The translations under genes and the position numbers were made by a program. This document shows, one piece after another, positions 4,611 through 49,973 of a stretch of 64,000 nt of DNA (positions are counted from its first letter, which is position 1; each line of letters starts with the position of its first letter). The notes beneath the pieces are model-generated. The model saw only the letters and a list, made by a program, of their open reading frames with translations. It had not been told where the DNA came from and did no database searches. Source of the stretch: Kaistia defluvii (lineage in GTDB: Bacteria > Pseudomonadota > Alphaproteobacteria > Rhizobiales > Kaistiaceae); contig NZ_JAPKNI010000003.1 in the NCBI RefSeq assembly GCF_026343955.1, positions 62,001-126,000 on the forward strand. The letters are read 5' to 3'.

Positions 4611-4626
4611 TGGTGTCCCGGAAGGG
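4611..4626. repeat. attL core (duplicate of tRNA-Arg 3' end)
   Basis: The 16 bases TGGTGTCCCGGAAGGG are identical to 49897-49912, which is the CCA end, acceptor strand and part of the T arm of tRNA-Arg(CCT) on the minus strand. The match ends at the next base. No complete tRNA exists here, so this is the reconstituting end of the element rather than a second gene. Confidence 0.9.
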
Positions 4627-5214: not shown

Positions 5215-5291
5215 GCGCCCGTAGCTCAGCTGGATAGAGCACCAGACTACGAATCTGGGGGTCAGGAGTTCGAATCTCTTCGGGCGCGCCA
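5215..5291 (+). tRNA. tRNA-Arg (anticodon ACG)
   Basis: A complete 77-nt cloverleaf: acceptor GCGCCCG pairing with CGGGCGC, D arm GCTCAGCTGGATAGAGC, anticodon stem CCAGA/TCTGG enclosing CTACGAA (anticodon ACG), T arm with GTTCGAATC, discriminator G and encoded CCA. It lies inside the attL-attR interval and directly before the restriction cassette. ACG (as inosine) reads CGU/CGC/CGA. Whether it is a phage-carried extra copy or the only host copy cannot be judged here. Confidence 0.95.
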
Positions 5292-5405
5292 AAAGTCTTG
5301 CTGTAGGTTCAGTAACCGAGAGCACAGCGCCGTAGCGCCTATTTTTACCCCCCTCGACGACCCAGTTCAAATGAGCTACCGTCACTGAAGTTTGGCGTTG
5401 ACGCT

Positions 5406-5470
5406 GGACGATATCGAATGGGCGGCACACCACCGGCTAGCTGGGCGCACCAGAGGGACGATACCGAATG
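5406..5470 (+). repeat. Direct repeat at the methyltransferase promoter/start
   Basis: GGACGATATCGAATG at 5406-5420 and GGACGATACCGAATG at 5456-5470 differ at one base and lie 50 bases apart. The second copy contains the methyltransferase ATG. A shorter GACGATACC also occurs near 5133. The arrangement resembles operator sites for self-control of a restriction-modification operon. Confidence 0.4.
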
Positions 5471-6592
5471 AATTACGTTATTCCGTCGAATGAAATTCAG
5501 CGCAGAGCCACCCCTGACGGTAGCGATCCTTCGAAGCTTCACATCACGGCACCCTTTTGCAAAAAGCTCTTTGGCGACGCTAGACGCGTACCGCTGCGCA
5601 CCGGGGATGCAGATATTGTCGTTACCTCTCCGCCTTATTGGCTAAAGCGCGATTACGGCGTTACCGACCAAATCGGCCAGGAACCGTCGGCTGACGCGTT
5701 CGTCGCAAGCCTGCTCGAGTGCATGGAGAACTGGAAGACCATCTTGCCGGCATGGGGATCGGTCTTCATAAATATAGGAGATACCTATCATAAGGGATCT
5801 CTGGCAAACACACCTGGCCGGCTCGAGATTGCCGCCCAGGATGCGGGATGGACCGTTCGAAATCGAATCATTTGGGTGAAGGATGCCGGCATGCCAGATC
5901 CAGCCAAGGATCGGCTCAAGAGTCGGCATGAGTACATTATTCATTTCGCTGCAAGACGAAGGAATTATTACTACGATCAGTTCGGCTATGCAGAAAAGTA
6001 CGGTAACGGCACAGGCCCGAGTGACGTTTGGCAGATTGGCCTCAAGCGCGACATGAGCGCGCACTTGGCACCCTATCCTACAGAACTCGTGGAACGCATT
6101 CTGACGCTCGCGTGCCCCGAACAGGTTTGCACTCATTGCGGCAAACCGCGTGAGCGCATAGTCCGTCGCACTTCACAACTTGATACATCAAGACCGCAGG
6201 CGAAGCGTGCGATGGAACTGGCGCAAGAAAAAGGACTGACCGCTCAGCATATCGCCGCGATTCAGGCGACTGGCATCTCGGACGCCGGCAAGGCGATGCG
6301 GGTTCAGACCGGGACGGGAAGAAACTCCGCAACGGTCAAGGTCCTAGCGGCAGAAGCGAAGGCCGCGTTGGGGGGGTACTTTCGAGAGTTCACTTTTGCA
6401 AAGCGCGAGACGGTCGGCTGGACGGACTGCGGCTGTGGCGCGCCCTTCCGGCCAGGCATCGTGCTGGACCCATTCATGGGGACCGGAACGACGCTTCGGG
6501 CAGCCGGGGATATCGGACGGAGCGCTATCGGTGTAGACCTTGCTCAGAAAACTGAGTCTGAAAGGCTTACACAGCGTGGTGGTGGCGACTGA
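5468..6592 (+). CDS. Site-specific DNA methyltransferase (beta-class, N4-C or N6-A)
   Basis: 374 residues. Catalytic motif IV VTSPPYW lies near residues 52-58 and the AdoMet-binding motif I DPFMGTGTT near 333-341, so the order IV ... target region ... I is the beta class. SPPY is most often seen in N4-cytosine enzymes, but N6-adenine members exist. Between them are CPEQVCTHCG and later CGCGAPF, a cysteine pattern suggesting a zinc site. It begins a four-gene same-strand cassette with an McrB-like ATPase and an McrC-like nuclease and would protect host DNA. Codon and base use are clearly more AT-rich than in the phage genes. Confidence 0.9.
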   Translation: MNYVIPSNEIQRRATPDGSDPSKLHITAPFCKKLFGDARRVPLRTGDADIVVTSPPYWLKRDYGVTDQIGQEPSADAFVASLLECMENWKTILPAWGSVFINIGDTYHKGSLANTPGRLEIAAQDAGWTVRNRIIWVKDAGMPDPAKDRLKSRHEYIIHFAARRRNYYYDQFGYAEKYGNGTGPSDVWQIGLKRDMSAHLAPYPTELVERILTLACPEQVCTHCGKPRERIVRRTSQLDTSRPQAKRAMELAQEKGLTAQHIAAIQATGISDAGKAMRVQTGTGRNSATVKVLAAEAKAALGGYFREFTFAKRETVGWTDCGCGAPFRPGIVLDPFMGTGTTLRAAGDIGRSAIGVDLAQKTESERLTQRGGGD

Positions 6593-7202
6593 ACTCAACA
6601 CTTACGTTTTTACGAAGGCAGCGGTTAAGCGATCGATTGACGGCCTCACGCAGCTTCAGATTCACGAGCATTTTGCCGGCTATCTTGCTATTTTGCGGGC
6701 CACCAAACAAAAAGCCCCGTTGCCCGTAAAATCCGCGGACATTACCGCGTTTCACGATCTGTATATGCGGGCAGCAGGGGCGCCCGAAAATGCCCCATAC
6801 GTCCGGCCATTTAAATCGCGGGGGCAGGGCCTCGAAACCTTCAACGCCAATGTTGCGGGTTCTTATGCGCCCAGCTCCCTTCGTTCGAAGGGTAAGCTGA
6901 TAGACGTCATAGAAGTCTCTGGCAGCGGACGTAGTGCCATTTATGGGTTGCGCGCAAATCACGCCGCATTGGCTCTAGGCAGCCTAGTAGCTTCAAAAGT
7001 GCCCATTGTCGCCCTATCGGCCTTTATCTATCGAGACTATGGATTTCATCTATCCCAGCCTCGAGTAGATGCCGTAGTTGCGCTCTTTCGCAAGGAGTTT
7101 GGATTGTCGGCTCAAGACCCGGTTGAGCGAAAGGTCTTTGACACGCTTTTTTTTGACGACAGCGCTGATTATGACTCAGCGGATCTTGAACTGAACGTGT
7201 GA
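6576..7202 (+). CDS. Unknown protein of the restriction cassette
   Basis: About 208 residues; it overlaps the methyltransferase end and is itself overlapped or abutted by the ATPase gene, so the genes are co-translated. I recognise no family. The centre reads KLIDVIEVSGSGRSAIYGLRANHAALALGS; the C-terminus is acidic (FFDDSADYDSADLELNV). There is no membrane segment or signal. The adjacent McrB-like ATPase lacks the N-terminal DNA-recognition domain of classical McrB, so this protein is a candidate for the recognition subunit, comparable in position to the extra subunit of BsuMI-type systems; this is inference. The start is uncertain: three GTG codons stand in a row at 6576-6584. Confidence 0.75.
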   Translation: MVVATELNTYVFTKAAVKRSIDGLTQLQIHEHFAGYLAILRATKQKAPLPVKSADITAFHDLYMRAAGAPENAPYVRPFKSRGQGLETFNANVAGSYAPSSLRSKGKLIDVIEVSGSGRSAIYGLRANHAALALGSLVASKVPIVALSAFIYRDYGFHLSQPRVDAVVALFRKEFGLSAQDPVERKVFDTLFFDDSADYDSADLELNV

Positions 7203-7213
7203 GGCCACCCTTC

Positions 7214-8182
7214 ATGGATAGTGTCACCCGCAACCGAGTGCGCGCCCTCACCCTAGAGGACCTAGGGGTTAAGCCTGCGAGCTCGAGAGGCCAGACAGTC
7301 GGAGAGGCAGAGATCACCGCTCTTCCGGAAAACGACGAGGTGCTCATCGAAGTGCGGGCCGCGTTGAAAATGGGATTTGCCGGTGTCATATTTTCCGGCC
7401 CTCCAGGCACCGGAAAAAGTTGGTATGCAAAGCGTGCCGCGCTAGCGATCTCGGGCGATGTAGACGCCATTCGGATCGTGCAGTTTCACACCTCTTATCA
7501 ATATGAAGACTTCATGGAAGGCTTCAGCCCCCAGGAGGGCGGGGGGTTTCAGTTACAGAAGAAGACATTTCTTTTGCTGTGCGACGACGCATTAGAACAG
7601 CCAGAAACGACTTATGTTCTTTTAATCGACGAAATCAGTAGATGCGACGTGGCACGCGTGTTTGGCGAAGGATTGACATACATAGAATCAGACAAGAGAG
7701 GCCATAGTTTCACTCTATCGTCTGGGAACTCCATGATTATTCCGCCTAATATTGTCATACTGGCAACAATGAACCCATGGGATAAAGGGGTTGATGAACT
7801 CGATGTAGCGTTAGAACGGCGATTTGCCCGCATCGAAATGCCACCAAGCAGCGTAGAGCTGAAACGTATATTATTGCTGAAGCAAGCAGAACCAGAAATA
7901 TCTGCTAAGATTGTCGGATTTTTCGAATTTGTGCAAAGCCTTGATGACGAAATGTTGCACCTCGGCCATGCTTACTTCTTGGGGTGCACCGACGAGCTAA
8001 GCGCGCAACGCGCTTGGAAATTCAGTCTTCTGCCTTTTTTTAAGAAAACATGCCGTCTGGACAGGGTTACTCTTAATAGGATCGTAAAGCATTGGGACGG
8101 TTTGTTTACTCAGGCTAGCTTAGCAGCAGAGCCAACACCGGGCGCTCCGGATCAGGCGCCCGCCGCTGCCGAAGCTACCTAG
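7214..8182 (+). CDS. McrB-like AAA+ ATPase
   Basis: 322 residues. Walker A GPPGTGKS near residue 62, Walker B YVLLIDEISRCDVARVFGE near 135-153, and the sensor region ILATMNPWDKGVDELDVALERRFARIEM, whose MNxxDK pattern characterises McrB-type AAA+ motors of 5-methylcytosine restriction enzymes. Classical McrB has a long N-terminal DNA-binding domain that is absent here: the AAA+ core begins almost at once. The ATG at 7214 follows GAGG at a good distance and is preferred over a GTG overlapping the previous stop. It would assemble as a ring that drives DNA translocation for the McrC-like nuclease encoded next. Confidence 0.9.
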   Translation: MDSVTRNRVRALTLEDLGVKPASSRGQTVGEAEITALPENDEVLIEVRAALKMGFAGVIFSGPPGTGKSWYAKRAALAISGDVDAIRIVQFHTSYQYEDFMEGFSPQEGGGFQLQKKTFLLLCDDALEQPETTYVLLIDEISRCDVARVFGEGLTYIESDKRGHSFTLSSGNSMIIPPNIVILATMNPWDKGVDELDVALERRFARIEMPPSSVELKRILLLKQAEPEISAKIVGFFEFVQSLDDEMLHLGHAYFLGCTDELSAQRAWKFSLLPFFKKTCRLDRVTLNRIVKHWDGLFTQASLAAEPTPGAPDQAPAAAEAT

Positions 8183-8183
8183 G

Positions 8184-9536
8184 ATGCTTGGACTATCCGC
8201 GCTGGAGCAAACTCTCAGTGGTAGCGGTTCAGCCTCACCTTTGCTTCACGAGCGCATCCTCATCAAAGCACTGGAGCATGAGACCGTCCTTCTGCCACCA
8301 ACAGTTGTCCAGGCGGACGGAACCCTCGACGTCTATGACGATGTCCTCAATCGGTTTCGCTTGACCTACCATAAGACCCGCCCTTCAATTCAATGCGGGG
8401 GGTGGGTCGGATATATCCCGATAAATGATAAATACGCCCTCCAGGTTTCGACCCGCGTTCCGGTTGGCAATCTTGAGAGACTTGTCGCGATGGCGGCAGG
8501 GTATGCTCCCTCGGTCCTCCAAAAATACAAGCGCCTGTTCGCATCCACCGGGGATCGCCCAGAGGCTCTGTTTGACATTCTAGCTGACCAATTTCTGCTC
8601 GCGTTCGACCGAATCTGGGAACACGGACTAATTAAAACATACAATCGCGACACCAGGATCAGCGCCAACCCAAGCGGCCGCATCATGCCTTTTGAAACGG
8701 AGTGGCTAACGGCTAGGTCCGGCCGACCGACTGCAAAGTCCTCCAGCTTTCGCCGAACACCAGATTTCGGTCCGAACCGCATGCTGCGGTATGCGTTCGA
8801 GAAGTTATTCGTGCGGAACCTTGGCTTGCCAGACCAGAGCCAGCGGGCTCGCACACTTCAAATACGAACAGCGCTGCTTCGTCTAGGAGACGTGAGACCG
8901 GCATCCGCCTCCGAAGTCACCCCTTTGGCCGTCGCCAGCTATCTTAAGCGATTGCCCGCGCATCATGAGCAATATACCGACGCGCTGATTACGGCATTGC
9001 TGATTGTTTCCGACCGGGGGCTTTCCATACGCCATTCCGGCGGCATAGCTGAACTACCTTCGATTTTGATCGATATGGCGACCGTTTTTGAGAGCTATAT
9101 GCGCCACGTCCTGGGCGAGGGGCTGGCTCGGTATCAAGAGATAGCCGTAAAGGATGGCAACAAGGATGGGGCGACCGGAGCAAAATTGTCGCTATACAAT
9201 TCTGTACCAGCCGGAAGCAGCAATCCGGATGCGACACCAGACATAGTCATCGAAGTGAACGGCCGAACCGCTTTAATAATCGATGCAAAATACAAACCGG
9301 CCCCAAAGTCTCCTGATAGAAATGATGTCAACCAAGCGATCGTCTATGGAGCAAGGTATGATACGCCCAAGGTAATGCTACTTCATGCGGGTCGTCCTTC
9401 AGGGCGAATGTCCGTAGAACTCTGTGGGTCGATCGGCAGATATCAGGTTTACAACGGCATGATGGACCTAAACGCTCCGTCTATCGAGAAGGAAGAAATG
9501 GGATTCGTCGCGGCGGTTCTTAACCTACTGAAGTGA
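8184..9536 (+). CDS. McrC-like restriction nuclease subunit
   Basis: 450 residues starting one base after the ATPase stop. The C-terminal PD-(D/E)xK nuclease core is visible: TPDIVIEV near residue 351 and LIIDAKYK near 363-370 (catalytic D and D-x-K). The N-terminal part (GWVGYIPINDKYALQVSTRV; AGYAPSVLQKY) matches the McrC family. McrC contacts the McrB ring and cuts DNA. With a dedicated methyltransferase upstream the set is more likely a conventional restriction-modification system than a methyl-dependent type IV enzyme. It ends 60 bases before convergent phage lysis genes. Confidence 0.9.
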   Translation: MLGLSALEQTLSGSGSASPLLHERILIKALEHETVLLPPTVVQADGTLDVYDDVLNRFRLTYHKTRPSIQCGGWVGYIPINDKYALQVSTRVPVGNLERLVAMAAGYAPSVLQKYKRLFASTGDRPEALFDILADQFLLAFDRIWEHGLIKTYNRDTRISANPSGRIMPFETEWLTARSGRPTAKSSSFRRTPDFGPNRMLRYAFEKLFVRNLGLPDQSQRARTLQIRTALLRLGDVRPASASEVTPLAVASYLKRLPAHHEQYTDALITALLIVSDRGLSIRHSGGIAELPSILIDMATVFESYMRHVLGEGLARYQEIAVKDGNKDGATGAKLSLYNSVPAGSSNPDATPDIVIEVNGRTALIIDAKYKPAPKSPDRNDVNQAIVYGARYDTPKVMLLHAGRPSGRMSVELCGSIGRYQVYNGMMDLNAPSIEKEEMGFVAAVLNLLK

Positions 9537-9596: not shown

Positions 9597-9962
9597 CTAC
9601 TTGTTGTGCCCGCTTGGAAGCCGCTTCAGGATCCGCTGCAACTTTGCCTCCGCCTTCTCCTCCGCCCGGCGCTCGATCTCCGCCTCATCGGCCGCGTCGC
9701 GCATCAGGTCGCGGATATCCTCGATCGCCGCGGTGCATGCTCGGAACGCAGTTCCCAGCCCGCGCACCTCTTCGACTAGTTCCTTGATGGGCTTGGTATC
9801 GGCGATCGAGGCGGCCGTGATCACCAGGTCGTCGGTCGGCTGAGCCTTCCCCTTGATGAAATATCCCACGAAGCAGGCAAAAGCGGCGCCGAGCAGACCG
9901 CCGACATAGAGGATCGAGCGAAGCCAGTCGGGCAGCGACGACACATCAGGCATTGCGTCCAT
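9597..9962 (-). CDS. Single-pass membrane protein of the lysis module (holin-like)
   Basis: About 121 residues with one transmembrane helix near the N-terminus (ILYVGGLLGAAFACFVGYFI) and a long charged, Ala/Glu-rich helical C-terminus (EIERRAEEKAEAKLQRILKR) likely to form a coiled coil. It is the last gene of the leftward lysis set and overlaps the preceding gene by 17 bases. Holin or holin-accessory function is inferred only from position and topology. Alternative ATG starts lie at 9953 and 9983. Confidence 0.6.
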   Translation of the reverse strand: MDAMPDVSSLPDWLRSILYVGGLLGAAFACFVGYFIKGKAQPTDDLVITAASIADTKPIKELVEEVRGLGTAFRACTAAIEDIRDLMRDAADEAEIERRAEEKAEAKLQRILKRLPSGHNK

Positions 9963-10410
9963 GTTTCCAGGCCTCGTCTGCATGCCGGGCGTCCGTCGAG
10001 GTCCGGACGATGTTGTAAATGTCGAGCGCGAAAAAGACGGCCGAGGCGGATAGGCCGGTCGCTGTCGTCTCAGTCACCCAAACGGATAGCGACTGGCTGA
10101 GCCAGAAAAAGCAGGACAGGAACGCCATCGCCGCCCGCACATGTGGCGATCGCCGCGACCAGGCCGTATCGGCGAAAGTCCCGTTGATGATCAGTGCCAC
10201 CAGGCGAAGTGCGGCAATGCCGAAGGCCGCGCCGCCCCAGAGCCCTTGCGATCCATGGTCGGCCAGCCACACCCAGGCAGGCCGCTCGAGATAGGCGGGC
10301 GTGAAGATGCAGTTGAGAGCCCATATCATCAGGATCAGCGCGAGCGCCCATTCCGAGGCCCGCGCCGGCAGGTGCTTGGTGATGCCGGTGGCGATGCGCG
10401 CGATGATCAT
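9946..10410 (-). CDS. Multi-pass membrane protein of the lysis module (putative holin)
   Basis: 154 residues with about four hydrophobic segments (ALALILMIWALNCIF, GLWGGAAFGIAALRLVALII, AAMAFLSCFFWLSQSLSVWV and a weaker GLSASAVFFALDIYNIV). The ATG at 10410 overlaps the stop of the spanin-like lipoprotein in ATGA, supporting this start over an upstream one. Located between spanin genes and another small membrane protein, it is a holin candidate; similar multi-pass proteins of unknown role occur at this place in other alphaproteobacterial prophages. Cargo 3' end: short, soluble, charged. Confidence 0.6.
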   Translation of the reverse strand: MIIARIATGITKHLPARASEWALALILMIWALNCIFTPAYLERPAWVWLADHGSQGLWGGAAFGIAALRLVALIINGTFADTAWSRRSPHVRAAMAFLSCFFWLSQSLSVWVTETTATGLSASAVFFALDIYNIVRTSTDARHADEAWKHGRNA

Positions 10411-11507: not shown

Positions 11508-12389
11508 TCAGGCGCTGGCGAGGCTTTCGAAGAGCGGCATGCCCCGCTGGGGTGACGGCACGCCACGCTCGTTACTGATGATCAACTCGGGGACGGTTTG
11601 CGCCGGCCCGGACGCGATGGAATAGGTCGTCTCGACCCGTTCGATCGCGAAGGCCTCGAAGGCCGCACGCACTTCCGGCGTGTCATTGATCGACAGGATG
11701 AATCCGCCGGCGATCGACCGCAGCTGCGTGGCCAATGTCACGAAATCCTCGGGGCCAAAGACACCCTTGCCGTAATCGTCCTCGGATCCGACATAGGGCG
11801 GATCGAGATAGAACAGCGTCCCCGGCCGGTCATAGCGCGTGATGAAATCGCCATAAGGCAGGCATTCGATTACCACCCCGGCGAGGCGCTCGTGGACCGC
11901 CTCGAGGATCGGACCCAGCTTCGTGACATCGAAGCGGGACGACTGTTCCGGCGACACGCCAAAGTTCCGGCCGCGAACCTTGCCGCCGAAGGCCAGGCGC
12001 TGCAGGTAGAGGAATCGCGCCGCCCGCTCGAGATCCGTCAGGGTCGACGGATCCGTCAGCGCGAGCCGCTCGAACTCCCGCCGGCTGGTGATCTGGTAGC
12101 GCAGCATTTCGAGGAAAGCGACGTAGTGGCGCTGGAGCACCCGAAAGAACCCCGCAACGTCGCCGCTGATGTCATTGATCACCTCCGCCTTAGGTGCCCG
12201 CTCCCGCTTCAGAAAGATGCCGCCCATGCCCACGAACGGCTCGGCATAGGTGACATGCGGGACCGCATCGATCATCGCGACCAGCCTGGCCGCGAGATTG
12301 CGCTTGCCGCCGATATAGCCGGCGACAGGCGAGACCGGCTCAACCGGCCGGAATTCCATTTCCATGGTTCGTTTACTCAGATCGGTCAT
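11508..12389 (-). CDS. DNA adenine N6-methyltransferase (D12/Dam class)
   Basis: About 293 residues. The AdoMet site YAEPFVGMGGIF (about residues 43-54) and catalytic FYLDPPYVGSEDDYGKG (about 190-205) define a D12-class N6-adenine enzyme like Dam; the N-terminal YIGGKRNL is also typical. As an orphan phage methylase it could shield phage DNA from restriction or affect packaging and gene control. It sits between the endolysin and tail fibre genes. The start is not certain; possibilities are a GTG at 12407, ATG at 12389 or ATG at 12365. Confidence 0.9.
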   Translation of the reverse strand: MTDLSKRTMEMEFRPVEPVSPVAGYIGGKRNLAARLVAMIDAVPHVTYAEPFVGMGGIFLKRERAPKAEVINDISGDVAGFFRVLQRHYVAFLEMLRYQITSRREFERLALTDPSTLTDLERAARFLYLQRLAFGGKVRGRNFGVSPEQSSRFDVTKLGPILEAVHERLAGVVIECLPYGDFITRYDRPGTLFYLDPPYVGSEDDYGKGVFGPEDFVTLATQLRSIAGGFILSINDTPEVRAAFEAFAIERVETTYSIASGPAQTVPELIISNERGVPSPQRGMPLFESLASA

Positions 12390-12478
12390 GTTCCGCGGGC
12401 TGTGCACAGCAGCGGCGGACGTGACGTTGAGCTTCTTGGCGTCGTGCGGGGCTTCAGGTGCCCACCTTATCCCGCAGT

Positions 12479-41268: not shown

Positions 41269-41511
41269 ATGAAAACGCTCGCTTACACCTCCTACGCCCG
41301 CCGCGCTCTCCGGAAACTCCCGGCAGATGTGCGCGCACAGGTCGAAGCCCGGCTGGCTCGGTTGGCCGAGACGGGTGAAGGCGACGTCAAGAAGCTGGTC
41401 GGCGAAGTCGGCTCCCGCCTGCGGGTCGGCGACTACCGCGTGATCTTTGTCGAAACCGCCGATATGATCGAGGTCCGTGCCCTCGGTCATCGCCGCGAAA
41501 TCTACCGTTGA
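41269..41511 (+). CDS. RelE/ParE-superfamily toxin
   Basis: 80 residues: YTSYARRALRKLPADVRAQV, then LVGEVGSRLRVGDYRVIFVE and EVRALGHRREIYR. The last two blocks (RLRVGDYRVIF; GHRREIYR) are diagnostic for RelE-type toxins, which cleave mRNA at the ribosome, or ParE-type ones, which act on gyrase. Followed after 12 bases by an HTH antitoxin. The pair runs against the surrounding leftward genes and is likely an independent lysogenic cargo. Confidence 0.9.
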   Translation: MKTLAYTSYARRALRKLPADVRAQVEARLARLAETGEGDVKKLVGEVGSRLRVGDYRVIFVETADMIEVRALGHRREIYR

Positions 41512-41523
41512 AAGGAACCCATC

Positions 41524-41904
41524 ATGGGTAAGCCCCACTTCATCAGCGACGAGATCGTCGTCCTGTCCCGTCGCGACTATGACGCCCTGATGGCGCGCTC
41601 CGGCGACGAGGGCGCCGAGGATCGCATGACGGCGACCATTATCGCGGAGAGCGATGCCGCCATTGCAGCCGGTGCGGATATCGCTCTGCCCGAAGATGTC
41701 TGGACGGCGATCGAGGCTGGCGAGACGCCCGTCCGCGCGATCCGCAAGCACCGCGGGATGACCCAGACCGGACTGGCGGCCGCTGCGGGCGTGACGCAGG
41801 GCTACATCGCGGATATCGAGACCGGCAAGAAGGCCGGCTCGACCGAGACGCTCAAGGCCATCGCCCGCGCCCTCGCCGTTCCACTGGACACACTGGTTGA
41901 TTGA
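41524..41904 (+). CDS. XRE-type antitoxin
   Basis: 126 residues. The N-terminal part (SDEIVVLSRRDYDALMARSG) resembles a Phd-like or linker segment; the C-terminal part is an XRE helix-turn-helix (IRKHRGMTQTGLAAAAGVTQ; GYIADIETGKKAGSTETLKA). It would neutralise the upstream toxin and repress the shared promoter at the GCGATATCGC palindrome. Toxin-first gene order is that of higBA-type modules. Confidence 0.9.
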   Translation: MGKPHFISDEIVVLSRRDYDALMARSGDEGAEDRMTATIIAESDAAIAAGADIALPEDVWTAIEAGETPVRAIRKHRGMTQTGLAAAAGVTQGYIADIETGKKAGSTETLKAIARALAVPLDTLVD

Positions 41905-41915
41905 GCGGGCGGCCG

Positions 41916-43157
41916 TCATGCTGACGTCTCCGGCGCTTCCAGGCCCCAGACGTCCCAGCCCGGCCGCGCGCGACGGGCGTTTAATTCGATCTTGGGCAGG
42001 TTCGGATAATAGGCTTCGATCAATTCGGCGAAGATCTCCGGCTTCGCGGAATGCTCGCCGACGGGCGCCTTGATCACGGAGGGCCACTGCTCGCCCATCG
42101 CCGGCGCCGGCACGTTGCCGCGCGTGCCGACGAGCAGCAGCTCGTGCATGTTACGGTTCCAGTAGCCGGTGCTGAGCTTGTCTTTCTCCCAGATGAATTG
42201 GGCTTTGTATTCGAAACCCCAATGTTCCAGGACGCGTAGCGCGGCCTTGATCATGGGCGCGGTCGCCCAAAGGAACAGCACGGAATCGGACGCGGCGATG
42301 TCACCGACAGGACGCAAAACGATGTCGTTGGTTGGCGTCGTCGGATAGTGATTGTCGGCGGCGCGATCCAGGCCGGTTTCGCGGCTGTAGGTCTCGAACT
42401 GCCACTCCGGATCGGCATAGACGACGCCGAACCGCTTGTTCGGCAATGCGCGCTGCTTTCCGGCAAGAGCCGCCTCACGCCGGGCGCGTTTCGCCTTCTT
42501 GTCCGCCGTCTTCGTATCCCGCAGCCGCTTGATCGCTGCGCCGAGAGCGCGCGGGTCAACGCTGTCAACGATGCGCCTCTGCTCGGCCAGCGGCAGCGAG
42601 GCGATGTCCGCCGCTGCCGAGACCGAGATCCGGCCGCCATCGACCGCCGCAACCAGTTCGGCAGCACCATGCGAAAGGACTTCGCGCGCCGTGGTGACGC
42701 TTCGGTCGGAGACATTGGCCACGCGCGCCGCCTCGCCTTGGCTGACTTTCCGCAAATTTGCGGAAGGTTCGGCCAAGTCCGTGCGCTCGCCTTGGCGCAT
42801 CGTGGCGACGCGCGCGGCGACGAGCGCCCGCTGGCTCTGCGAAAGCTGCCGACGATGCAGGTTCTTCGAAATCACATAGGCGAGAGGGTCGCTGCCTCGG
42901 AACTGGCGCGTGTGGATCGTGGCCCCGACGACGAGGGCGGCGCGATAGCGATTGCGCCCGTCAAGGATAGCCCCGTCGAGAAGCTCGATCGGTTCCTGCA
43001 GGCCATTCGCCGCGATGTCGGCCATGAGGTCGTCGAACGCCTCGCCCTCGATCAGCGGAAAGAGATTGGCAAGCGGGTGAAACGGCAGCTGGCCCACCGG
43101 CGTCGGCGCGTCGCCAGGCAGCCAAGACAAGGGCGGTGGAAGAAAGGCGATCGCCAT
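41916..43157 (-). CDS. ParB-like plus MT-A70 adenine methyltransferase fusion
   Basis: 413 residues. Residues about 20-125 form a ParB/Srx domain (IEGEAFDDLMADIAANGLQE, AILDGRNRYRAALVVG). A helical DNA-binding region follows (QGEAARVANVSDRSVTTARE), and residues about 240-400 form an MT-A70 domain with FGVVYADPEWQFE, LFLWATAPMIKAALRVLEHW and NMHELLLVGTRG. The catalytic motif reads DPEW in place of the usual DPPW. The fusion is known from phages and presumably methylates adenines in phage DNA. The start overlaps the DUF2312 gene stop by one base. Confidence 0.88.
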   Translation of the reverse strand: MAIAFLPPPLSWLPGDAPTPVGQLPFHPLANLFPLIEGEAFDDLMADIAANGLQEPIELLDGAILDGRNRYRAALVVGATIHTRQFRGSDPLAYVISKNLHRRQLSQSQRALVAARVATMRQGERTDLAEPSANLRKVSQGEAARVANVSDRSVTTAREVLSHGAAELVAAVDGGRISVSAAADIASLPLAEQRRIVDSVDPRALGAAIKRLRDTKTADKKAKRARREAALAGKQRALPNKRFGVVYADPEWQFETYSRETGLDRAADNHYPTTPTNDIVLRPVGDIAASDSVLFLWATAPMIKAALRVLEHWGFEYKAQFIWEKDKLSTGYWNRNMHELLLVGTRGNVPAPAMGEQWPSVIKAPVGEHSAKPEIFAELIEAYYPNLPKIELNARRARPGWDVWGLEAPETSA

Positions 43158-46854: not shown

Positions 46855-47001
46855 ATGTCCTTCGACGAGATCCCCATGAAAACCCTTCTGGATACTTTTG
46901 ACGCCGTTCGCGCAAGCGAACGCGACGACTGGCTGGCGCTTGCCTGGACCTTCAGCCTGATCGGCCTTCTTTGCATGCTCGCGCTCGGCTTCGCGCGATG
47001 A
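46855..47001 (+). CDS. Small membrane peptide in the early operon
   Basis: 48 residues (or 41 from the ATG at 46876). The end is a membrane helix (ALAWTFSLIGLLCMLALGFA). The stop overlaps the start of the PAPS-reductase-like gene (ATGA), which supports translation. Function unknown. Confidence 0.5.
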   Translation: MSFDEIPMKTLLDTFDAVRASERDDWLALAWTFSLIGLLCMLALGFAR

Positions 47002-48080
47002 GAGAGATCATCGTCGACAGCTTCGCCGGCGGCAAACATCCCGCGCCGCAGTTCAGGACGGCTCGGCGGGTTCCGACCGGCCGCAACCATCCGCAGCCTT
47101 GGGAGCACGTTGTAAGCGTCTCCGGCGGCAAGGACAGCACAGCGCTTTACTTGCTCGCGATCGAGCGGGGCATGCCGTTTACGGCTGTCTTTGCCGACAC
47201 CGGCCACGAACATCCGGCAACCTATGAATATATCGCCCAGCTGGCCGAGCGCGCCGGCGGTCCGCCTATCTTGACCGTGAAGGCCGATTTCACGGAGGCC
47301 ATGGCTCGAAAGCGAGCGTTCATTCTGGCGAAGTGGCCGGCCGCCGGCGTGCCGATCGATCGCGTCGAGCGCGCAGCGGCGTTGATGAGGCCGACGGGCA
47401 TCCCGTTCCTCGATCTCGTTATGGTCAAGGGCCGCTTTCCAGGGGCGAAGTCCCGCTTCTGCACTGACGAACTCAAGATCGCGCCAATGTGGTTCGGAGT
47501 GCAAAAGCCTGTCCTCGAAGCGGGCCGCAGCCTGATTTCATGGCAGGGCGTGAGAGCGGAAGAAAGCCTTGTCAGGCGGCAAATGCTGCGCTGGCAGCGG
47601 GTCAATCTCGCTCCCTTTTCCCTGCCGAAGCGCGAGCGCGAGGCGGCTTGGGCATTTCGTGCTTACACCTATCGACCGATCCACAGCTGGCTGTTGGCAG
47701 ACGTGTTCGCCATGCATGACCGGCACGGCATCGCGCCTAATCCGCTTTACGCGAGGGGGGCTGAGCGGGTCGGCTGCTGGCCGTGCATCTTCGCCAAGAA
47801 AGACGAGATCCGGCTGATCGCCCAGATTGATCCTTCTGCGATCGATCGCGTCGAAGAATGGGAGAGCATCGCAGGAGGGGTCTCTAAGCGCGGAGCGGCG
47901 ACCTTCTTCTGCGCCACCGATGACCCTCTCTATCACGACGGGGGCACCGTCACGGCGGAGCAGTTTGGCATCAGGGCGCGTGTCGAATGGTCGAAGACGA
48001 CGCGAGGCGGCGTTCAGTACGACCTGATGGCCAGATTTGAGGCCGGCGCATCCTGCCTCGAGGTGGGCCAGTGCGAGTAA
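46998..48080 (+). CDS. PAPS-reductase/ATP-PP-loop family phage protein
   Basis: 360 residues. The PP-loop VVSVSGGKDSTALYLLAIER lies near residue 38 and FADTGHEHPATYEYI near 66, as in PAPS reductases and DndC-like proteins. Cysteines in RFCTDELKIAPM and GCWPCIFAKKDEIR may bind a cluster or zinc. The family activates a substrate with adenylate: in sulfate assimilation, thiolation, or DNA phosphorothioation (DndC). No dndD/E-type partners are seen, so the substrate is open. Copies occur near integrase genes in other alphaproteobacterial phages. Coupled to the preceding small gene. Confidence 0.82.
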   Translation: MREIIVDSFAGGKHPAPQFRTARRVPTGRNHPQPWEHVVSVSGGKDSTALYLLAIERGMPFTAVFADTGHEHPATYEYIAQLAERAGGPPILTVKADFTEAMARKRAFILAKWPAAGVPIDRVERAAALMRPTGIPFLDLVMVKGRFPGAKSRFCTDELKIAPMWFGVQKPVLEAGRSLISWQGVRAEESLVRRQMLRWQRVNLAPFSLPKREREAAWAFRAYTYRPIHSWLLADVFAMHDRHGIAPNPLYARGAERVGCWPCIFAKKDEIRLIAQIDPSAIDRVEEWESIAGGVSKRGAATFFCATDDPLYHDGGTVTAEQFGIRARVEWSKTTRGGVQYDLMARFEAGASCLEVGQCE

Positions 48081-48609: not shown

Positions 48610-48789
48610 ATGGGACAGCGAGCCGCAACGTTCACCGAGGTGGATCTCAAACGCGCCATACGCGCCGCGACCAAGGCCGGCTTTGAGGTGAAAGGCGTCG
48701 AGATCACGAGACTGGGCACCATTCGGCTACTGCAAACCGTCACTGAGGAAAAGATCGAGGTTGACGACTTGGAGCCGGTCATCCTGTGA
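48610..48789 (+). CDS. Small protein beside integrase, excisionase position
   Basis: 59 residues: ATFTEVDLKRAIRAATKAGF, then EVKGVEITRLGTIRLLQT. This short type is widespread next to integrase genes in Rhizobiales phages. Excisionases commonly occupy this place, but there is no clear winged helix, so the role is unproven. Ends eight bases before the integrase ATG chosen here. Confidence 0.6.
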   Translation: MGQRAATFTEVDLKRAIRAATKAGFEVKGVEITRLGTIRLLQTVTEEKIEVDDLEPVIL

Positions 48790-48797
48790 TAGGCCCT

Positions 48798-49838
48798 ATG
48801 CCGCGTAAACTGCATGCCCACGTCTATCGAGAGAAGACCCGCCATGGGCGCCCGGTCTGGTACTTCCGCCGTGGAAAGGGCGTTAGAACGCGCCTGCCGG
48901 GTGACTACGACAGCCCGGAGTTCATGGAAGCCTATCACGCTGCGCTGGCGGGAACGGCAGTCCAACGGGCCCGGCCGACGGCGAAGCCGAACACGCTCCG
49001 TTGGCTTGTCGACCGTTACCGGGAATCCTCCGACTTCGTCCGGCTGGCACCGTCTACCAAACGCGTCCGCGAGCGCCTTCTACTGCGGCTTTGCGACGCG
49101 GCCGGCGACACCCTGGTCGAGCGATTGACCCGCGCAGCCATCTTGGCGGGCCGGGAGCGACGCGCCGAGACGCCCGAAGCGGCGAACGCCTTCATCAAGA
49201 CAATGCGCGTGCTGCTCGACTATGCCATGACCGCGAACCTGATCGACAGGAACCCGGCTCGCGATGTGAAGCTGTTCTCCAGCAAGACCGGCGGCATCCA
49301 CACATGGACCGTCGACGAGGTGGCCCGTTACGAAGAGCGGCATCCACTCGGCACCAAAGCCCGGCTTGCGCTCGATATCCTGCTCTACACAGGGCTGAGA
49401 CGGTCGGACGCCGTAGTGCTGGGGCGCCAGCACGTCAGGAACGAGATCCTGAATATCCGTACGAAGAAGACCGGCAAGACCGTGACGCTCCGAATCCTGG
49501 CGCCTCTTCGCGCCTCCCTCGACGCATCAAAGACTGGCGACCTCACCTATCTGATCACCGAGTACGGTAAGGCCTTCACAGCCGACGGATTCGGCAACTG
49601 GTTTCGGGATCGGTGTGCAGAAGCTGGCGTACCTGGTTCGGCGCATGGGCTGCGGAAAGCAGCTGCGACTCGCGCGGCAGAGGCAGGCGCGACGACTTCC
49701 GAGCTGATGGCCATGTTCGGCTGGCAGTCTTCCAAGCAGGCCGAACTGTACACCCGAGCCGCGAACCGAGCCGCCATGGGCGTGCATGCGAGCGACAAGC
49801 TGCAGCAACATAAACAGAACAAAACGCCCGCACCTTAA
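48798..49838 (+). CDS. Tyrosine integrase
   Basis: 346 residues. An Arg-rich N-terminal arm-binding part (HAHVYREKTRHGRPVWYFRR), core-binding helices (FIKTMRVLLDYAMTANLIDR) and a catalytic domain with Arg in LLYTGLRRSDAVVL (about residue 200), Lys in IRTKKTGK, HGLRKAAATRA (about 283), Trp in MFGWQSSKQ and the nucleophile Tyr in ELYTRAANR (about 317). It inserts the phage at the tRNA-Arg(CCT) end 59 bases downstream. A GTG at 48786 overlapping the previous stop is an alternative start. Confidence 0.93.
   Translation: MPRKLHAHVYREKTRHGRPVWYFRRGKGVRTRLPGDYDSPEFMEAYHAALAGTAVQRARPTAKPNTLRWLVDRYRESSDFVRLAPSTKRVRERLLLRLCDAAGDTLVERLTRAAILAGRERRAETPEAANAFIKTMRVLLDYAMTANLIDRNPARDVKLFSSKTGGIHTWTVDEVARYEERHPLGTKARLALDILLYTGLRRSDAVVLGRQHVRNEILNIRTKKTGKTVTLRILAPLRASLDASKTGDLTYLITEYGKAFTADGFGNWFRDRCAEAGVPGSAHGLRKAAATRAAEAGATTSELMAMFGWQSSKQAELYTRAANRAAMGVHASDKLQQHKQNKTPAP

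Positions 49839-49896: not shown

Positions 49897-49973
<77 letters not shown>

Follow-up and report, generated by a model that had tools for sequence, protein, structure and literature searches.

A prophage-borne methylase cassette with McrBC-like subunits and a short peptide shared by the effectors of related loci

How does an McrB-type ATPase choose its DNA when the domain that would read it is missing from its chain? The question is raised by a cassette of four genes in a 64,000-nucleotide stretch of the Kaistia defluvii genome (contig NZ_JAPKNI010000003.1, positions 62,001 to 126,000; hereafter the window, whose own numbering is used for its features). The cassette encodes a DNA methylase (M), a small protein (B), an AAA+ ATPase and an McrC-type nuclease, and the answer that we favour involves a short N-terminal peptide that the ATPase shares with proteins of other families encoded behind B at related loci.

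The cassette, its relatives and a shared peptide

The cassette comprises the following features:

5468–6592, + strand: M, amino-methyltransferase (N4-cytosine or N6-adenine), 374 amino acids, assigned by PF01555, PADLOC PDLC03316 and motifs
6576–7202, + strand: B, proposed recognition or adaptor subunit, 208 amino acids from a GTG start at 6576, without library family
7199–8182, + strand: McrB-type AAA+ ATPase without N-terminal DNA-binding domain, with NxxD motif, 327 amino acids from a GTG start
7232–7276, + strand: N-terminal peptide NRVRALTLEDLGVKP, residues 12–26 of the ATPase
8184–9536, + strand: McrC-type PD-(D/E)xK nuclease, 450 amino acids, with PF10117 and the motif TPDIVIE..IIDAK

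All four open reading frames (ORFs) are open and tightly packed: M and B overlap by 17 bases, B and the ATPase gene by 4, and a single base separates the latter from the McrC gene. Longer B (TTG at 6540, giving 220 amino acids) and shorter ATPase (ATG at 7214) versions are possible. M matched PF01555 (E 4e-35, Pfam) and PDLC03316 (E 4e-145, PADLOC), and its motifs run from TSPPYW first to DPFMGTGT last, with an insert carrying Cys pairs (residues 218–328) in between. The ATPase, with the motifs GPPGTGKS, LLIDEIS and ATMNPWDK (NxxD), matched AAA_5 (E 3e-15) and has Escherichia coli McrB as its closest PDB relative (E 7e-37); since its P-loop lies at residue 67, there is no room for an McrB-type DNA-binding domain. 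The nuclease matched PF10117 (E 9e-21). For B, searches of Pfam, NCBIfam, PADLOC and PHROGs gave no match with an E of 0.1 or below. A preliminary description had proposed just these four proteins, as well as a base use richer in A and T than that of the phage, and the measured G+C content agrees (0.539 in the cassette vs 0.637 in 9600–49800). Its start at position 5215, however, falls on a tRNA-Arg(ACG) gene outside the cassette. This tRNA gene (5215–5291) is complete, stands beside the cassette inside the prophage described below and has an identical copy elsewhere in the genome, the identical stretch being 81 bp long.

We read 27 loci with B (numbered L below; the L052 contig was counted once), of which 13 came from a search with a four-row B alignment against a species-level genome collection and the rest from two plasmids, haloarchaeal genomes, one relative from the same order and the viral contig L067. 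The B profile matched in all 27, from Alphaproteobacteria to haloarchaea. B is present in at least 2 of 297 genomes of the order of the window genome (single-sequence query, own genome included), at least 1 of 398 of its phylum (the own genome only), at least 10 of 242 of the class of genome G659 and, in three further genome sets, at least 1 of 251, 198 and 185, each time the centre genome. In 24 of the 27 loci, including the window, M immediately precedes B. Of the remaining loci, L048 carries M on the far side of the effector, L052 has a 150-aa gene upstream of a full-length B and an M-like gene before a second, partial B, and the L053 contig ends inside B. In L054, both M (PF01555, E 2e-46) and B (profile E 4e-20) are divergent. 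The effector gene overlaps B or follows within 2 bases in 11 of the 12 loci measured, the gap being 24 bases in L013.

Four classes of effector occur downstream of B across the 27 loci:

NxxD-type McrB and McrC, 11 loci: the window, L006, L007, L008 (cut off after the start of McrB), L012, L013, L016, L045, L053, L054, L067
NxD-type McrB and DUF2357/PDDEXK_7 nuclease, 1 locus: L009
AAA_21 ATPase and DUF4276 protein, 3 loci: L014, L017, L018
Cytidine-deaminase-like protein, 12 loci, haloarchaeal

The L014 pair matched PADLOC HEC-01A and HEC-01B at E 5e-126 and 7e-131, and L017 and L018 are 66–72% identical to L014.

The effectors of all classes have in common a short N-terminal peptide of approximate form [KR]xRxL[ST]x[ED]LG, exemplified by NRVRALTLEDLGVKP in the window McrB, NRVRNLTASDLLSSE in the L014 ATPase and GKVRRLSLDDLGIPL in the L004 deaminase-like protein. 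We evaluated it by a leave-one-class-out test on 22 of the 27 effectors, in which a score matrix trained on three classes scored the fourth against a background of 1,037 unrelated ORFs of the loci (35 effector-related ORFs removed). The window ATPase obtained a held-out score of 21.9, the background maximum being 12.4. Fourteen of the 22 outscored every background ORF, with the limits that training windows were picked by eye, that several rows are close relatives (L010/L011) and that the best control scores at least as high as any of the four weakest members. Six were equalled by 1 to 12 background ORFs (L007 and L009 by 1, L012 by 2, L008 by 4, L052 by 5, L018 by 12), and two failed, with 41 (L054) and 800 (L013) background ORFs scoring as high. 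Outside the held-out test, L046, L047, L051 and L067 scored 30–34 with the full matrix, and L005 was unscored. A 607-ORF background still holding some effectors gave an agreeing outcome. Seven ATPases related to the effectors, none of them with a B match by profile (0 of 7), scored at most 5.9 with the full matrix. In L014 the peptide occupies residues 23–37, in an N-terminal extension outside the matched HEC-01A profile (48–437).

The position of the P-loop follows the same division. It lies at residues 59–83 in all 12 McrB-type ATPases beside B (L067 counted from its ATG) and at residues 236–663 in 11 McrB relatives without B (L060, L061 and L072–L080; the plasmid comparison covered nine of the 79 plasmid records found). 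Three of these relatives, L072, L079 and L080, combine an amino-methylase, an McrB with its own N-terminus and an McrC, by analogy the same logic as that proposed for the cassette, united in one chain; in L060, an McrB with its own N-terminus is preceded by a C5-methylase gene (PF00145, E 8e-17). The simplest reading of these sequences is that the McrB N-terminal recognition domain may have been replaced by the peptide together with M and B, and a comparison of B with the N-terminal domains of L072 and L079 did not show homology between them. The L060 locus (L060:3-3641), from a relative in the same order, carries a C5-methylase, an McrB and an McrC-like ORF recognized by eye, an arrangement like that of BsuMI and LlaJI.

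The AlphaFold model of B (predicted local distance difference test, pLDDT, 85) is weakly winged-helix-like. Its invariant stretch NxNVAGxYAxxSxR begins in the region of lowest confidence of the single-chain model (residues 81–100, mean pLDDT ~50), and this part of the predicted structure might behave as an interface could.

The profile of the haloarchaeal effectors (A3) matched the Bacillus subtilis cytidine deaminase at E 1e-13, and their predicted fold, from a model built on 3 sequences with a mean pLDDT of 61, gave a best Foldseek E of 6e-5 with a TMt of 0.71. The His and both Cys of the zinc ligands H...CxxC are present in the seven proteins aligned, all of which have HxxE in place of the canonical HxE/CxE spacing. 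Profile and predicted fold support membership of the cytidine deaminase superfamily, but with the catalytic Glu displaced by one residue and the only Pfam match, in L052, under the cut-off, any deaminase activity is putative. In 3 of the 12 loci the protein forms a fusion with the C-terminal beta-propeller of DNA gyrase A:

L048:6987-9083, behind B: deaminase-like protein fused to the propeller (Pfam E 6e-59)
L050:9078-11138, behind B: the same fusion (E 2e-56)
L052:2075-4051, behind B: the same fusion (E 4e-62)

Upstream, L048 has PbeA- and PbeC-like genes and L010 a PbeC-like gene. A large upstream gene without Pbe-like annotation occurs in L004 (L004:418-2475) and in L051 (L051:11218-13365); the L004 gene resembles GHKL ATPases weakly, with a match that stays under the cut-off (PF13589, E 0.007).

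The methylase and the prophage

The central insert of M (residues 218–328) with its Cys pairs is probably the target-recognition region. Regions of this kind usually diverge. Here, in all 10 bacterial or phage M proteins outside the window's clade, conservation of the insert exceeds that of the catalytic part (in L014, 74% vs 56%), whereas the two are about equal in the 4 rows of the window's clade and the 5 archaeal rows. Of the 111 insert positions, 33 are invariant in 20 of the 23 M rows; L048, L052 and L054 were left out of the whole comparison. Such unusual conservation, where divergence is the rule, implies a common target or a common partner. On this basis, M proteins from Chloroflexota to Alphaproteobacteria are predicted to share a single methylation motif. 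The TSPPYW motif presumably points to N4-cytosine rather than N6-adenine as the base modified, and from its sequence we favour M as a putative N4-cytosine methylase. Circularly permuted N4-cytosine methylases have been described beside such genes (accessible text of PMC10853773).

Close M homologues occur in the mycobacteriophages Dulcie (62%; the one phage of the two whose surroundings were read) and Parliament (61%). A Streptomyces plasmid carries a further homologue (60%). The phage genes, without B, are:

L056:3947-5026: mycobacteriophage M homologue
Phage Parliament, 41452–42456: mycobacteriophage M homologue

The B profile found no B in L055 or L056, nor did a B search in the phage collection. 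Phage M without B possibly serves as protection against systems of this type, and a conserved M target would explain the presence of this methylase on its own in some phages.

The window cassette is itself part of a prophage, delimited by these features:

4611–4626: attL, 16-bp direct repeat TGGTGTCCCGGAAGGG, identical to 49897–49912
48786–49838, + strand: prophage integrase adjoining attR (phrog_1, E 2e-33)
49897–49912: attR, second copy of TGGTGTCCCGGAAGGG, the 3' end of the tRNA-Arg(CCT) gene (49897–49973, − strand)

A search of the window that allowed one mismatch gave no third copy of TGGTGTCCCGGAAGGG. Between the two copies, 9 of the 10 ORFs tested matched PHROGs families (integrase, repressor, replication initiation, terminase, portal, minor tail, tape measure, tail fibre and endolysin), the one without match being 9600–9983. 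The paired repeat at tRNA-Arg(CCT) and the phage ORFs that it encloses therefore define the element as 4611–49912. The cassette lies inside it at the integrase-distal end. On the viral IMG/VR contig L067, genes for an integrase (PF00589, E 6e-16) and for a dihydrouridine synthase (PF01207, E 2e-65) adjoin a second four-gene cassette.

Beside its endolysin gene, the window prophage has another DNA methylase gene, whose product belongs to the D12 N6-adenine class (11508–12407, − strand; PF02086, E 2e-23). In its early region it encodes a PAPS-reductase-domain protein (46971–48080; PF01507, E 5e-23).

How the parts might work together

We regard the cassette, with moderate confidence, as a mobile restriction–modification system whose recognition core can take more than one effector. 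M would methylate one DNA motif, and B, probably with M, would recognise that motif on unmodified incoming DNA. The AAA+ ring would be recruited to this core by its N-terminal peptide of about 15–20 residues, which may dock on B or on M and would stand in for the DNA-binding domain that McrB normally has in the same chain. McrC would then cleave the unmethylated DNA as in McrBC. At related loci, the same M-B core and peptide would serve other effectors. The preliminary interpretation, a restriction system with a detached recognition subunit carried by a prophage, stands in part: the cassette and its place in a prophage are borne out, but the detached recognition and the restriction are steps that we infer.

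A broader version is more tentative. M and B might form a general core of prokaryotic immunity for sensing self and non-self that takes interchangeable effectors through one short linear peptide. The deaminase-like effector of one archaeal branch, sometimes tethered to a DNA-wrapping propeller of the gyrase type, would then not cut unmodified DNA but edit or mark it.

Among the alternatives to the proposed mobile system, the one that survives best, although we consider it unlikely, is an ordinary restriction–modification system of the LlaI/BsuMI type, in which B would be a third restriction subunit and the peptide would have been inherited with B without any meaning as a plug. The McrB-like subunits of LlaI and BsuMI are indeed short (337 and 343 aa), and both systems have three-ORF restriction cassettes with the same layout as here (accessible text of PMC1459862). 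The peptide, however, also occurs outside the superfamily of McrB, in the deaminase-like proteins and the AAA_21 ATPases.

It is less probable again that M and B form one unit, B controlling or sharpening the methylase or being itself a nuclease, with the downstream genes as independent defence cargo. PADLOC lists HEC-01 and PDC-M26 as candidate systems of their own, and McrBC is a system by itself, but independent cargo would not share a peptide that the seven relatives without B lack, nor does the near-constant overlap or adjacency of effector and B genes favour it. Least likely, if by little, is an abortive defence in which M would mark the host while a phage able to block or outrun it triggers McrBC against the cell's DNA: neither the deaminase-like nor the DUF4276 effectors are restriction nucleases of the classical kind, and the M genes of Dulcie and Parliament, with no B match in that phage collection, look as if phages pre-empt such systems, but these phage genes fit classical restriction equally well.

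Most restriction systems hold recognition and cutting in fixed subunits. In the series of loci described here, the recognition and modification pair looks constant and the weapon varies, and the plug is apparently a short peptide. If this is true, the peptide can find new effectors by sequence, and directing McrBC-like motors to unmodified DNA becomes testable.

Comparison with known systems

McrBC-like restriction–modification systems are already known, three-ORF restriction cassettes included (accessible text of PMC1459862). What appears new, within the open-licence literature searched, in which neither was found described, is the shared plug peptide and the series of M, B and differing effectors. 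LlaI, BsuMI and LlaJI resemble the cassette in joining one or more methylase genes to an McrB-like AAA+ ATPase and an McrC-like nuclease (accessible text of PMC1459862 and PMC2614495). They differ by a methylase pair (as far as given in PMC2614495), whereas 5468–9536 holds one amino-methylase, which shares the operon of B through their overlap; the D12-class gene lies outside the cassette, among phage genes and on the opposite strand. LlaJI differs further in that, in the text available, the DNA-binding part is placed in the N-terminus of R1. Type IV McrBC shares the AAA+ and nuclease subunits, E. coli McrB being the best solved relative of the ATPase, but the cassette ATPase lacks the N-terminal modified-base domain and a methylase gene is present.

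Similar in composition are the methyltransferase-associated McrBC branches of the CoCoNuT census, with NxxD and NxD McrB-type GTPases beside DNA methylases (PMC11090510); the accessible part of that paper, which defers these branches to a later one, has no B subunit or docking peptide. The haloarchaeal B loci share PbeA/PbeC-like genes and M with the CxC/PbeABCD systems, where the methylase is of the N4 type, and B may be MTaX1, a domain encoded beside such N4 methylases (accessible text of PMC10853773, in whose main text the words deaminase, McrB and McrC are absent). Finally, the PADLOC candidate HEC-01, an ATPase with a DUF4276 protein, corresponds to the L014 effector pair, which differs in standing behind M and B and in carrying the peptide on its extension.

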